Shown: one piece after another, positions 36,765 through 41,806 of the stretch
Position numbering within the stretch: the first letter of the stretch is position 1
Layout: each line of letters opens with the position of its first letter
Source: Spirochaetales bacterium
GTDB taxonomy: Bacteria > Spirochaetota > Spirochaetia > SZUA-6 > RPPD01
Reading direction: 5' to 3'
NCBI GenBank assembly: GCA_016930675.1
Contig: JAFGGG010000009.1
Coordinates: 62,001-126,000, forward strand
DNA length: 64,000 bases
Program-made: the position numbers and the translations under genes
The notes under the pieces: model-generated
Told to the model about the DNA's origin: nothing
What the model saw: the letters and a program-made list of their open reading frames with translations, nothing else
Database searches by the model: none

Positions 36765-38549
36765 TTACGCCCGCAGCAGTTCATCCTCAAACTGCCGGGT
36801 ATATAGACTGTAATAATGGCCCTTCAATGCCATCAAATCCGCGTGAGCTCCCTGTTCCTTTATTTTACCGTCTTCAATAACCAAAATCCGGTCCGCGTTT
36901 CTGATTGTCGACAGCCTGTGCGCCACAATGATACTTGTTCTGTTCTTTAAAAGCTCCTGTAAACCCATCTGTATCAGGTGTTCGGTGAGGGTATCAATCG
37001 AGCTGGTGGCCTCATCGAGAATAATCACATCCGGATTATTTAAGATGGCTCTGGCGATGCTTACCAGCTGTCTTTGCCCAACAGAAAGCATGCCTCCTCC
37101 TTCTCCCACCTCCGAATCATACCTGTCCGCCAGTTTTACAATGAAGTCATGAGCATGGGCCTTTTTTGAAGCCGCAATAATCTCATTCTTTCTTGCATCA
37201 GGTCTTCCGTACCGGATATTTTCCATTACCGTGCCGGAAAACAAATGCGGTGTTTGCAGTACAATACCGATCTTGTCCTGTAAAGATCTCTGTGTAATCT
37301 TGCGATAGTCGACTCCGTCAATTAATATCTTCCCTTTTTGAGGTTCATAAAACCTGGGAATAATATTGGTAATTGTTGTTTTCCCTCCTCCGGTAGGACC
37401 TACCAGCGCAATCATTTCACCGGGATGTACCGTAAGATTGAGATTATTTAACACCTTTACATCCCTCCTATAGGAGAAATGGATATTCCTGAACTCGATC
37501 TTTCCCTTTATGCCTTTGATGCTTTGGGCTTTTTCCCCATCCACAATTTCCGCACGGCTGTCCAAAAGCGTAAATACGCGTTCGGCACTGGCCAAAGAGC
37601 GCTGCATATTGGCATAGACTCGCGCCAGATCCTGAATAGGCCAGAGCATAAATATGATATAGGAGATAAAGGCCTTGATACCGCCCACGGTAATAAATCC
37701 GGATTCAAACTGAAATCCACCGGACCACAGCACAATACACACTCCCAATGCCGTGGTTAATTGCACGGCCGGCAGGAACAGGGCCGACAAGAATCCGGCC
37801 TTAAATGACGCCTTGTACATGGAATCCGTAACGCCTCCGAAGATACCCGCGTTCTTTTCTTCGACCCCAAGGGATTTTATCACCTTTACACCCGAGATTG
37901 TTTCCGAGAATTTACTGGTGATCTGAGAATTAAGCGCTCGTACAGTCCTGTACTCCTTGATGATTAATCCTTTGAACTTCAACGCACTCACAATCAGGAT
38001 GGGAAGAATGATAAGCACGAGCAGAGCCAGCTGCCAGTTTATGATAAACATGAAAACCATGGCGGCCGTAACGTTCATGGTGCCCCATATGCCGTCCAGA
38101 AACATCCAGGTTAATAACTCGGTAATCCTGGAAGCGTCGGATGTCATTCGTGAAAGCAGCCAACCGCTTGAGGTTCTATCAAAATAAGAAAAGGACAGCG
38201 TCATAATATGATCAAACATCTTCTGTCTTAAGCCTTTAAGAGATTTTTCTCCCAAAAGCCCCGCGAAAAATATAAATCCGAAGACAAAAACCGCGTTGGC
38301 ACAGATCACACAAAAGTAGAGTGTCATATAATAGAAAACCGCATCCAGGTCCTTATTGGTGATACCGACGTCGATCACGTTCTTCAGCAAATATGTTTCT
38401 GATGCCTGGGCTATGGAAAAAAGTCCGATACATATCAGAAATCCGACCAGTAAGGGCCAGTTTTTTCCTGATAATTTGATTATTCTTATAAACAACGTAC
38501 TGGTTTTAAAATGCTTTAATCTCTCCTCTTTATATTCTCGCTTTTTCAT
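36765..38549 (-). CDS. ABC exporter half-transporter, consensus Walker B subunit
   Basis: The start is set at ATG 38549 (MKKREYKEERL) with AAGGAG 7 bases upstream. The protein has 594 residues. Six membrane helices (about 25-310) form a type IV exporter domain. The ATPase has Walker A GPTGGGKTT, a Q-loop (GIVLQTPHLFSG), signature LSVGQRQL, Walker B VIILDEATSSID with the catalytic Glu, and the switch histidine in IIVAHRLSTI. It pairs with the upstream gene, whose end it overlaps by 20 bases. Together they form a heterodimeric exporter like BmrCD or TM287/288, which exports drugs or lipids. The substrate is unknown. Confidence 0.93.
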   Translation of the reverse strand: MKKREYKEERLKHFKTSTLFIRIIKLSGKNWPLLVGFLICIGLFSIAQASETYLLKNVIDVGITNKDLDAVFYYMTLYFCVICANAVFVFGFIFFAGLLGEKSLKGLRQKMFDHIMTLSFSYFDRTSSGWLLSRMTSDASRITELLTWMFLDGIWGTMNVTAAMVFMFIINWQLALLVLIILPILIVSALKFKGLIIKEYRTVRALNSQITSKFSETISGVKVIKSLGVEEKNAGIFGGVTDSMYKASFKAGFLSALFLPAVQLTTALGVCIVLWSGGFQFESGFITVGGIKAFISYIIFMLWPIQDLARVYANMQRSLASAERVFTLLDSRAEIVDGEKAQSIKGIKGKIEFRNIHFSYRRDVKVLNNLNLTVHPGEMIALVGPTGGGKTTITNIIPRFYEPQKGKILIDGVDYRKITQRSLQDKIGIVLQTPHLFSGTVMENIRYGRPDARKNEIIAASKKAHAHDFIVKLADRYDSEVGEGGGMLSVGQRQLVSIARAILNNPDVIILDEATSSIDTLTEHLIQMGLQELLKNRTSIIVAHRLSTIRNADRILVIEDGKIKEQGAHADLMALKGHYYSLYTRQFEDELLRA

Positions 38550-40329
38550 ATTTATTCTCCTTACCGTTATCAGTCTGGATTTGAAATATCTTTTTGTAGA
38601 TACCGGGCCGTTCAATAAGTTCCTCATGCCTGCCTGTTTCTACAATCTTTCCTTTATCCATTACAATAATTTTATCCGCCTTCATCAGGGTTTCTATCCG
38701 GTGAGCGATAATGAAAGATGTTCTGTCCCGCATCAGATGATCCAGGGCCTGCTGTATTTTCTTTTCGGTTTTAGCGTCAATTGCCGAGGTGGAGTCATCC
38801 AGAATAAGTATTTTAGGATCTTTTAAAATCGTTCTCGCAATGGCAACGCGCTGTCGCTGCCCTCCGGACAGACTTACTCCCTTTTCTCCTATTAACGTGT
38901 CATAGCCTTCGGGAAATGAAAGGATGGTCCTGTGAATACAAGCCATTTTAGCTGCCTGTTCCATTTCCTTTTGGGTTATCTCCCGTTTCACACCGAACAG
39001 CAGGTTCTCTCTTATCGTTGTCGTGAACAGGAACGGCTCCTGTTCCACCATACCGATATTGTCACGCAGGTACTTCTTTGTTAATGAAGTAAGGGCGTAG
39101 TTATCGATATAGATCCGGCCTTTATCGAGATCATAGAATCGCGGCAGCAGGTTAACCAATGAAGTCTTTCCCGAACCCGTAAGCCCTAAAATTGCAATTT
39201 TTTCCCCGGCCCGAATTTGCAGGTTGATATCTTCAAGGATGGGAACTCCTTCATTATAAGAAAAACACACGTCCTTGAATGTGATATTACCTTTTAGCTT
39301 GTGCTTAAGCTCGAGTCCCAATTCAATATCCTCTCCCGCCACATTCAAAATTTCCTTAATTCGAAAAAAGGAGACCGAACTCTTGGAAAGCTCGATAATC
39401 ATTCTGCCCAGCTCCTGCAGCGGCCAGATAATGGAAGCCACCATGGCGGTAAAAGCCACATAGGTGCCGAAGGAAATATCCCCGGTTAGCGTTAAGTAAG
39501 CTCCTATAGTGGCAATGGCAATAAACTGTGTTCCGCACAGCAAGACAGACAAAGGCCAAAATGCGGCGTGCAGGAAAACCAATCTTTTACCGCGGCGGCA
39601 TTGCTCCGCGTTGATCTTATCGAAATGCCCGGCTTCCCATTGCTGTCTGGCAAAAGCCTTTACCACCCGAATACCGGACAGTGTTTCCTGGACCGAAGCT
39701 GAAAGCTTTCCTTCCTGATTCTGATACGCTTCAAAACCGTTTACGATTTTTCTGAAAAAGAACAATGATAACAGAATTATAAATGGAACGGCAATAATGG
39801 ATCCCAACGCCAGCTGCCAGTGTAAAAAAAGAATCGCCGCAAAATTAATTGTGAAAAGAAAAATAATCCGGATGACTCCCGGAATCTGCTCATAGTAAAA
39901 CTTTCTCACACTGTCCACATCGGATGTCGCCCTTTGCACCAACTCTCCCGTCTGCATCTTATCGTGATAGCTGAAAGGCAAAGCTTGAAAATGCATGAAT
40001 AAATCATTCCTGAATTTATAAGCTACTTTTTCCGCGCTTTTGGCGCAGCCTTTGCCCGAAAAAAAGGCGCTTAAACCCCTTAAAAGAGCGGTAATTAAAA
40101 ACAACAATGCAAATCCTATGATGGTAATTGCACCCACCTGTTTAGCTATAAGGAGGTCGACAGCCGCGCGGATTATAAAATTACCGGCTGTTGATAATCC
40201 CACTGCAATACCCAAAGCCGCCAGGGCGAGAATAAATGTTGTTTTATATGCGCCCAACACACTGTAAAGCGTTTTTAATACCAGCAAGGGACTCTTTCTT
40301 TTATCCCTGCCTGAATCATGCTCTCTCAT
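38530..40329 (-). CDS. ABC exporter half-transporter, degenerate Walker B subunit
   Basis: The start is set at ATG 40329 (MREHDSGRDKRK) with GAGGAG 5 bases upstream. The protein has 599 residues and six membrane helices (about 30-320). The ATPase has Walker A GLTGSGKTS, signature LSGGQRQR, and a Walker B ending ILILDDSTSAID: Asp replaces the catalytic Glu, the mark of the degenerate site in heterodimeric exporters. The two genes therefore form one transporter with one consensus and one degenerate ATP site. It is first in the operon, behind the leader ORF and tandem terminators at 40393-40598. Confidence 0.93.
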   Translation of the reverse strand: MREHDSGRDKRKSPLLVLKTLYSVLGAYKTTFILALAALGIAVGLSTAGNFIIRAAVDLLIAKQVGAITIIGFALLFLITALLRGLSAFFSGKGCAKSAEKVAYKFRNDLFMHFQALPFSYHDKMQTGELVQRATSDVDSVRKFYYEQIPGVIRIIFLFTINFAAILFLHWQLALGSIIAVPFIILLSLFFFRKIVNGFEAYQNQEGKLSASVQETLSGIRVVKAFARQQWEAGHFDKINAEQCRRGKRLVFLHAAFWPLSVLLCGTQFIAIATIGAYLTLTGDISFGTYVAFTAMVASIIWPLQELGRMIIELSKSSVSFFRIKEILNVAGEDIELGLELKHKLKGNITFKDVCFSYNEGVPILEDINLQIRAGEKIAILGLTGSGKTSLVNLLPRFYDLDKGRIYIDNYALTSLTKKYLRDNIGMVEQEPFLFTTTIRENLLFGVKREITQKEMEQAAKMACIHRTILSFPEGYDTLIGEKGVSLSGGQRQRVAIARTILKDPKILILDDSTSAIDAKTEKKIQQALDHLMRDRTSFIIAHRIETLMKADKIIVMDKGKIVETGRHEELIERPGIYKKIFQIQTDNGKENKYEKARI

Positions 40330-40392
40330 AAGCACTCCTCTTGTCTGTTGTTAAAGCATTCCAAAATACTCTGACTTTCACATCCAATGCAT

Positions 40393-40417
40393 AAAAAAAC
40401 CGCCCTCTTTAAGGCGG
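40393..40417 (-). terminator. Second leader terminator before the ABC operon
   Basis: CCGCC and GGCGG (40400-40417) form a GC-rich stem, followed on the minus strand by seven T residues (40393-40399). It lies 64 bases before the ABC start, with no gene to terminate except the leader transcript. Confidence 0.8.
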
Positions 40418-40450
40418 CCCTTTTTAAGCAATACGTTTTGCCTAATTAAC

Positions 40451-40487
40451 AAAAAAAAGGCCGCAAACCTTTACACGGTCTGCGGCC
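40451..40487 (-). terminator. First leader terminator (attenuator) before the ABC operon
   Basis: GGCCGCA and TGCGGCC (40459-40487) form a 7-bp GC stem, with ACC/GGT pairing inside, followed on the minus strand by eight T residues. Its 5' arm contains CCGCAGAC (40478-40485 on the opposite strand), which is fully complementary to GTCTGCGG inside the leader ORF (40529-40536). Confidence 0.88.
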
Positions 40488-40511
40488 GGAATATGCAAGC
40501 TCTTTTAAATT

Positions 40512-40598
40512 CTAGCGCCTATGCTCCCCCGCAGACACACCTCTCCCGTCAATTACGAGAGTAAATGTAATACGTGCTGCTTTATGGAACATTAACAT
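40512..40598 (-). CDS. 28-residue leader peptide of the ABC exporter operon
   Basis: A short ORF starting ATG at 40598 with AGGAG 8 bases upstream and ending TAG at 40512. It begins MLMFHKAARI and ends GEHRR. It sits 24 bases after the expected transcription start and 25 bases before the first terminator. Codons 21-24 contain the antiterminator strand GTCTGCGG. A ribosome that reaches the stop would cover that strand and allow termination; one stalled earlier would free it to pair with the terminator arm. This is the arrangement of ribosome-mediated attenuators such as bmrB upstream of B. subtilis bmrCD, though the peptide itself is unlike anything I recognise. Confidence 0.75.
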   Translation of the reverse strand: MLMFHKAARITFTLVIDGRGVSAGEHRR

Positions 40599-40629
40599 CA
40601 ACAATTCTCCTAAAATTTAAGTTGCACTA

Positions 40630-40658
40630 TTTTTAATGCAGAATCAGAATAATGTCAA
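40630..40658 (-). promoter_or_regulatory. Promoter of the leader-ABC transcript
   Basis: -35 TTGACA (40653-40658), 17 bases, -10 TAAAAA (40630-40635). Transcription should start near 40622, giving a leader of about 290 bases before the first ABC gene. Confidence 0.8.
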
Positions 40659-40735: not shown

Positions 40736-41806
40736 ATGAAAAAAACACTGCTTTGGGTAATTTTTCTTTTCATTTCCCTGGCATATATTTCCGCGGAAAT
40801 GATAAACGGAACCGTAGAAATATATAATACGGCGGACGGTAAAAAAATCGGAACTCTCTATGACGGAACAAAAATAAAATTGATTACAAAGCAGGGCTCC
40901 TGGTATAAAATTGCAGTGAGTTTTAAAAATCATAAAAATATGTATCAAGCATTAAAAGCGGGAAGCAAAGAGACTCATTTTCTATATGAAAATCTTTTAG
41001 GGAGAATCGGTTATATCAATAAGGATCTGCCTTTGCAGGCCATGCTGGCCGGTGATAAAATTACAATAGAAGTTTTTGTCAAAAATGAGTGTTTCAAAGA
41101 TACCGTCAAGTATTACCTGGAAGGAAAACGCGTGCTTACTTCGCCGCGGTCGGTTCATTTTTCTTTTTCAAAAGCGGTTCCGGAAACAGAGATAAAAAAG
41201 ATTATAAACAATGTTAAAAATATCGACTCCACCACCTACGATCAGGATGTCCTCTATATTGAAGTCGGTTATACAGACGATAAGCCCACTACCGTGTTAT
41301 GTTACAGCTTAATAGACGGTGCGTTCGCCATTAAGGAAAGATATCATTGTGATGAAAACGGAATGCCTGTAAAATATATTACCGGCTATGATCCTGTTGA
41401 ATCGCATGTTTTTACATATTATAACAACAATGCATATAAGGAATTTTACTGGTCCAAAAGCCCCCAGACCTCAATTTACAGTCAAAGCGGATATATTAAA
41501 TTCGTACTTTATACTGAGGAGTATGAATTTGAAATAAACATAACTCTATCGGTCGCTGAAAACGAATTCTATGATCCTTCGTTTTATGTGCTGGCAGATA
41601 CAGCGACCATCTTCAAAATAGACCGTATTTCCGGGCAGACAGTGCAAAAACAAGAATTTGAGTTCTACACGCGAACAGAAGAAACATTATGGAACATAGA
41701 GCACAACAAACTGTTTAAGGAACAGATCCTCAAAATACAGAGTGGCATTAATTTTAAAAAAGAGTTCGCACAGATAATAGAAGATTTGCTGATTTTTTAT
41801 AGATAA
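40736..41806 (+). CDS. Secreted protein with SH3-like N-terminal domain
   Basis: A 356-residue protein with a signal peptide (residues 1-20, KKTLLWVIFLFISLAYISA). Residues 21-65 look like a bacterial SH3 domain (NGTVEIYNTADGKKIGTLYD, TKQGSWYKIAVSF). The remaining 290 residues are mixed strand and charge (YYLEGKRVLTSPRSVHFSFS, YGYTDD-like turns, FEINITLSVAENEFYDPSFY) and match no family I know. The ribosome site GAGGAG lies 6 bases before the ATG. It overlaps the convergent adenosine deaminase gene by 10 bases. Location is probably periplasmic. Confidence 0.75.
   Translation: MKKTLLWVIFLFISLAYISAEMINGTVEIYNTADGKKIGTLYDGTKIKLITKQGSWYKIAVSFKNHKNMYQALKAGSKETHFLYENLLGRIGYINKDLPLQAMLAGDKITIEVFVKNECFKDTVKYYLEGKRVLTSPRSVHFSFSKAVPETEIKKIINNVKNIDSTTYDQDVLYIEVGYTDDKPTTVLCYSLIDGAFAIKERYHCDENGMPVKYITGYDPVESHVFTYYNNNAYKEFYWSKSPQTSIYSQSGYIKFVLYTEEYEFEINITLSVAENEFYDPSFYVLADTATIFKIDRISGQTVQKQEFEFYTRTEETLWNIEHNKLFKEQILKIQSGINFKKEFAQIIEDLLIFYR

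Follow-up and report, generated by a model that had tools for sequence, protein, structure and literature searches.

Why should the operon for a two-gene ABC exporter be preceded by a short open reading frame (ORF) and two consecutive intrinsic terminators? This arrangement occurs in the 64,000-nucleotide stretch of spirochaetal DNA analysed here, hereafter the window, and an earlier sequence-only reading had seen in it a ribosome-mediated attenuator. The ribosomal proteins uL2 and uS3 of this genome have their best match in PDB entry 8fmw, the Borrelia ribosome (424 against 365 bits for uL2, 261 against 243 for uS3), which makes Spirochaetota the most likely phylum and Spirochaetia a probable class. 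The conserved position of the ORF, a conserved RNA motif and the complementarity of that motif to a terminator arm support this reading, and we put at roughly 80% the probability that the region is a ribosome-mediated transcription attenuator sensing blocked translation.

The exporter operon and its leader

Operon and leader lie on the minus strand. The first gene (38530–40329) encodes an ABC half-exporter with a degenerate Walker B motif (LILDD) and a canonical signature (LSGGQ), and the second (36765–38558, 5' end approximate) a half-exporter with the signature LSVGQ and the Walker B motif LDE. The same pattern is known from TM287/288, BmrCD and other asymmetric heterodimeric exporters and, judged by these motif differences between its genes, the two-gene exporter is an asymmetric heterodimer, as the sequence-only reading had held. 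Its first gene likely starts at the ATG at 40329 behind the Shine-Dalgarno sequence GAGGAG (40335–40340), rather than at the mechanically assigned GTG at 40335.

The leader begins with a promoter-like site (40629–40658, 10/12 matches) composed of a -35 element, TTGACA (40658–40653), and a weak -10 element, for which the promoter scan offers AAAAAT at 40634–40629 with a spacing of 18 nt or TAAAAA with a spacing of 17. With its weak -10 and about 1.4 sites of this kind expected by chance in the scan, the promoter is a weak part of the leader assignment. Downstream, the Shine-Dalgarno sequence AGGAG (40607–40611) precedes the 28-codon leader ORF MLMFHKAARITFTLVIDGRGVSAGEHRR, which runs from an ATG at 40598 to a stop at 40512 (40512–40598) and was delimited from the sequence and by alignment with the leaders of relatives. 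Near its end lies a conserved RNA motif, GACGGGAGAGGTGTGTCTGCGGGG (40527–40550), which includes the 5' strand of a predicted antiterminator, GTCTGCGG (40536–40529). Terminator 1 (T1, 40451–40487) starts 24 nt past the ORF stop codon and consists of an 11-bp stem with a loop of 7 (40487–40459) followed by T8, and terminator 2 (T2, about 40393–40424) of a stem of about 14 bp (about 40424–40399) with a T7 tract that runs to 40393. The neighbouring gene (40736–41806, plus strand) is divergent; both terminators thus lie within the operon's leader and cannot serve another gene. ORF, ribosome site and both terminators were located as the sequence-only reading had described them.

The whole leader folds better than all of 200 shuffled sequences (z -5.0). 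A further stem noted earlier, CTCTC/GAGAG, does exist in the window but is not seen consistently in relatives. No Rfam family matches at its gathering score; RNAI and SdsR were considered as identities and rejected, their scores being far below the respective cut-offs.

Terminator 1 and a predicted antiterminator

The segment GTCTGCGG is an exact 8-nt complement of CCGCAGAC (40485–40478), which would form the 3' strand of the antiterminator and doubles as the 5' arm of T1. By its sequence and by comparison with relatives, the leader ORF has a good ribosome site and closes with an RNA motif able to pair with the 5' arm of T1. This complementarity, already remarked upon in the sequence-only reading, was confirmed; of dinucleotide-shuffled ORFs, 0.43% contain an 8-mer that exactly complements the T1 arm. 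By energy, the duplex between ORF and arm is unremarkable relative to shuffles (p 0.16–0.21) because the arms are GC-rich; the strong evidence for the antiterminator comes from relatives instead.

Homologous leaders precede same-order exporter orthologs of 40–50% identity at seven loci (L029, L031, L032, L033, L055, L057, and L062). They share a short ORF, a GGTGYGCC-type motif at its end (in L032, just past the stop codon), and a GCCGC-type terminator, usually with a second in tandem. In the order-level alignment, the antiterminator pairs survive in 87% of cells and include 3 compensatory pairs, while the share of paired cells falls to 27–64% if the pairing is slid by 1–3 columns, and the terminator pairs are held in 96% of cells with 6 compensatory pairs. 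Over 19 leaders, the ORF-to-arm duplexes exceed those of shuffles with a combined Fisher probability of 1e-10, a figure that ignores kinship among the leaders, and L032, L019, and L110 show a weak antiterminator or none in this test. Other members of the class (L007, L011, L012, L066, L009, L010, and L015) have different peptides and an ORF whose second half is complementary to the terminator arm. In L007, L011, and L012, the antiterminator strand ACGTCTGCG has a further complement in the Shine-Dalgarno region GGAGACGT, and this pairing possibly acts as an anti-antiterminator.

Such a leader is missing from about half of the inspected exporter orthologs and from most of those at about 40% identity. 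One exporter ortholog (L006) has a similar CCGC-rich terminator directly after a promoter-like site, without a matching leader ORF. At three loci (L077, L078, and L083), other exporter matches are preceded, at a distance of about 260 nt, by similar ORFs of about 35 codons (e.g. MKHGTPIVVASGAGSARAEFGSCLPELRRMPGHPV) with AGGAGG, and no terminator was found there.

How the choice between the two structures might depend on translation was addressed by folding nascent RNAs that end shortly after the terminator 5' arm, with a ribosome footprint masked, for 23 leaders. In most of them, the antiterminator has a probability of about 0.6–1.0 for a ribosome held within the first half of the ORF and about 0 for one held late, the exceptions being L032, L019, L011, and L101; on the L009 and L015 leaders, a ribosome at termination would already lie beyond the motif. 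In the window, the probability is 0.7–0.8 for ribosomes at codons 0–15, 0.35–0.40 at codon 20 for two transcript lengths, and 0–0.2 near the end over most transcript lengths; with no ribosome, it is 0.6–0.7 until 22 nt after the start of the arm. The early-stall value is matched by 6% of shuffled ORFs. Once T1 is complete, it wins over the antiterminator in every case (probability 0 at full length in the window), so the switch must be kinetic. This folding, which had been suggested as a check together with the sequence-only reading, thus yields an antiterminator with the ribosome absent or early and a terminator with the ribosome near the end. Structure, covariation, and footprint folding in silico together show T1 and the predicted antiterminator to be mutually exclusive and both conserved, which bears out the alternative structures that the same reading had drawn.

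The RNA motif, its peptides, and ABC-F genes

A covariance model built from the exporter leaders, the window included (R1), also finds the element upstream of genes for ABC-F proteins in several families of the class, at L093–L101 with E-values of 3e-9 to 1e-5 and at L110 with 6e-4. The window motif GACGGGAGAGGTGTGTCTGCGGG and the motif upstream of the ABC-F gene at L101 are identical over 23 nt. A second model, R2, adds ABC-F leaders in one family (L116, L117, L120, L131, L138, and L139), as well as L118, which shares the leader at a locus that ends before the downstream gene. A weak R2 match (E 5e-6) precedes an orthologous exporter pair in another class (L119/L148). The E-values of all these R2 matches span 6e-8 to 3e-4, and their assignment leans on context as much as on score. 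The E-values of both models are rough, and the genomes of some relatives are incomplete; most of the weak matches, those with an E-value beyond about 1e-4, are generic GCCGC terminators and were rejected. Full-length ABC-F proteins from these loci score best with the NCBIfam model for ribosomal-protection-like ABC-F proteins, reaching 352–362 bits, just short of its cut-off of 380 and more than the housekeeping ABC-F models give, and a resistance function is likely from these scores. Some known ABC-F members are ribosome-protection proteins, and the presence of the element before ABC-F genes therefore makes ribosome-targeting drugs more credible as the signal.

The sequence-only reading had expected the ORF and the complementary arms to recur in related genomes. 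Their architecture is indeed kept across the order and in further families of the class, with weak evidence from one other class, but the peptide is not. Used as a query, the 28-residue peptide has no relative in 395 genomes of the class, and a match within the family, at chance level only, was set aside; the peptide is thus not the conserved part. The AGGTG motif, by comparison, occurs in all three reading frames across the leader ORFs and is therefore conserved and acts as RNA. The ABC-F leaders nevertheless share a peptide motif, R-(R/K)-(S/T) with an optional middle residue, whose arginine codon lies 31–35 nt before the RNA motif. An arginine at this spacing is found in 12 of 13 non-redundant ABC-F leaders and the full motif in 11 of 13, with peptide lengths that differ; as the motif was picked post hoc, its shuffle probabilities (3e-9 and below) are too small, and what matters is the constant spacing. 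In the window, codon 9 (CGT, 40572–40574) encodes an arginine at -32, but the rest of the motif is lacking; by comparison with the ABC-F leaders, this codon is a candidate stall position. A frame-independent motif together with R-(S/T) at a fixed distance in ABC-F leaders separates the RNA part of the sensor from its peptide part.

Fourteen of 17 ABC-F leader ORFs (L093, L095–L101, L110, L116–L118, L120, and L139) start 6–8 nt past a -10-like hexamer, picked by best score, and have no Shine-Dalgarno sequence, features from which their transcripts are probably leaderless mRNAs. Attenuator-like leaders with a short ORF and a GCCGC-type, often tandem, terminator were also seen before small genes at L103, L104, L113, and L129; no Pfam or NCBIfam family was found for the encoded proteins of the first three, which are up to 90 aa long.

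A proposed switch for blocked translation and its known counterparts

According to the mechanism we propose, a ribosome translating freely to the end of the ORF would cover the motif while T1 forms, and transcription would stop. A ribosome held at the start or within roughly the first 16 codons, or no ribosome at all, would leave the motif free to trap the T1 arm, and the exporter operon would be transcribed; the leader is accordingly predicted to be on by default when untranslated. The signal would be a block of translation by ribosome-targeting antibiotics; the switch would answer it with drug export here, and with ribosome protection where an ABC-F gene follows the element. We infer, as the sequence-only reading did, that such drugs turn on the exporter.

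After readthrough past T1, T2 would still stop the polymerase unless it too were controlled. It is enticing to speculate that T2 is disarmed in turn, by pairing of the freed 3' arm and U-tract of T1 with the A-rich 5' side of T2, a duplex calculated at -18.8 kcal/mol in the window. T1 and T2 share GCCGC cores, through which such pairing becomes possible, and it can also be drawn in other tandem leaders. A special match of the two is weakly supported, as the T1 3' arm pairs nearly equally with the T2 of its own genome and those of other genomes (means of -16.5 and -15.7 kcal/mol). Among 55 collected terminators, 9–24% pair as well or better, and the 9% that do so in the window case keep T2 disarming a conjecture.

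The same parts might be read in other ways. That the tandem terminators constitutively set a low level of expression, as an attenuator or insulator in which the ORF is incidental, is improbable: tandem terminators alone would suffice for this, and the exporter ortholog L006 has a terminator without a matching ORF, yet the position of the ORF, the RNA motif that it contains, and the covariation of this motif with the terminator arm are conserved, and the same motif recurs before ABC-F genes. Even less probable is a leader sensing amino-acid starvation. The same phylum does contain a leader of the same architecture at L127, a classical trp-type attenuator that encodes a WWW peptide and has two terminators ahead of a trpE-like gene, but the leader peptides studied here show no standout run of a single amino acid and the genes downstream encode exporters and ABC-F proteins rather than biosynthetic enzymes.

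The conservation of GACGGGAGAGGTGTG beyond what pairing needs, and in three frames, could also be explained by a binding site for a metabolite or protein, i.e. a riboswitch or the target of an RNA-binding protein, over which an ORF lies by chance. We consider this just as improbable as starvation sensing, since no Rfam family matches, the inspected ABC-F and order-level exporter leaders have an ORF that runs into or up to the motif with a Shine-Dalgarno sequence or a probable leaderless start, and the R-(S/T) motif stands at a fixed distance in the ABC-F leaders.

Under the favoured ribosome-mediated mechanism, the element has the look of an antibiotic alarm common to this group, and it apparently ties together export and ribosome protection, which are unrelated strategies of resistance. 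A bolder and so far doubtful extension is a Spirochaetota-wide translation alarm in which one RNA motif, usable in any frame and read by Shine-Dalgarno-led or leaderless ORFs, would control ABC exporters and ABC-F ribosome-protection genes, stand on by default when untranslated, and disarm two serial terminators. The element can also serve as a sequence handle in the search for inducible resistance genes of Spirochaetota, and its signal is testable in one reporter.

Our search of the open-access literature, which was not exhaustive, found antibiotic-responsive ribosome attenuators in Firmicutes and Proteobacteria and none for spirochaetes. By its layout, the window leader would be a device of the trp attenuator kind and can be regarded as analogous to the bmrB and vmlR leaders of B. 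subtilis. With bmrB, which precedes bmrCD (PMC4191407), it shares a short ORF, a choice between antiterminator and terminator, a heterodimeric ABC exporter downstream, and translation as the sensor. The bmrB terminator, however, lies inside the ORF, whereas T1 follows 24 nt after the stop codon and is, unlike in bmrB, one of two terminators. Removal of the bmrB start codon lowers readthrough (PMC4191407), the opposite of the readthrough predicted for an untranslated window leader. The leader of the ABC-F gene vmlR (PMC9226507) likewise combines an ORF with an intrinsic terminator, forms its antiterminator on drug-stalled ribosomes, and controls the kind of target found at L093–L101; it differs in having a three-codon ORF inside an anti-antiterminator, a device not consistent among the present leaders, and one terminator. 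In toiL of E. coli (PMC12121999), a single ORF responds to several classes of ribosome-targeting drugs according to where the ribosome stalls, a likeness to the window leader, although toiL acts on a ribosome-binding site and Rho rather than on an intrinsic terminator. The predicted default-on behaviour sets the window leader apart from vmlR and brings it closer to the DUF1127 leader of Sinorhizobium meliloti (PMC12218461). That leader serves another target gene and has a C-rich element at the start of its ORF, but the gene stays off only if the ORF is translated, just as predicted here.
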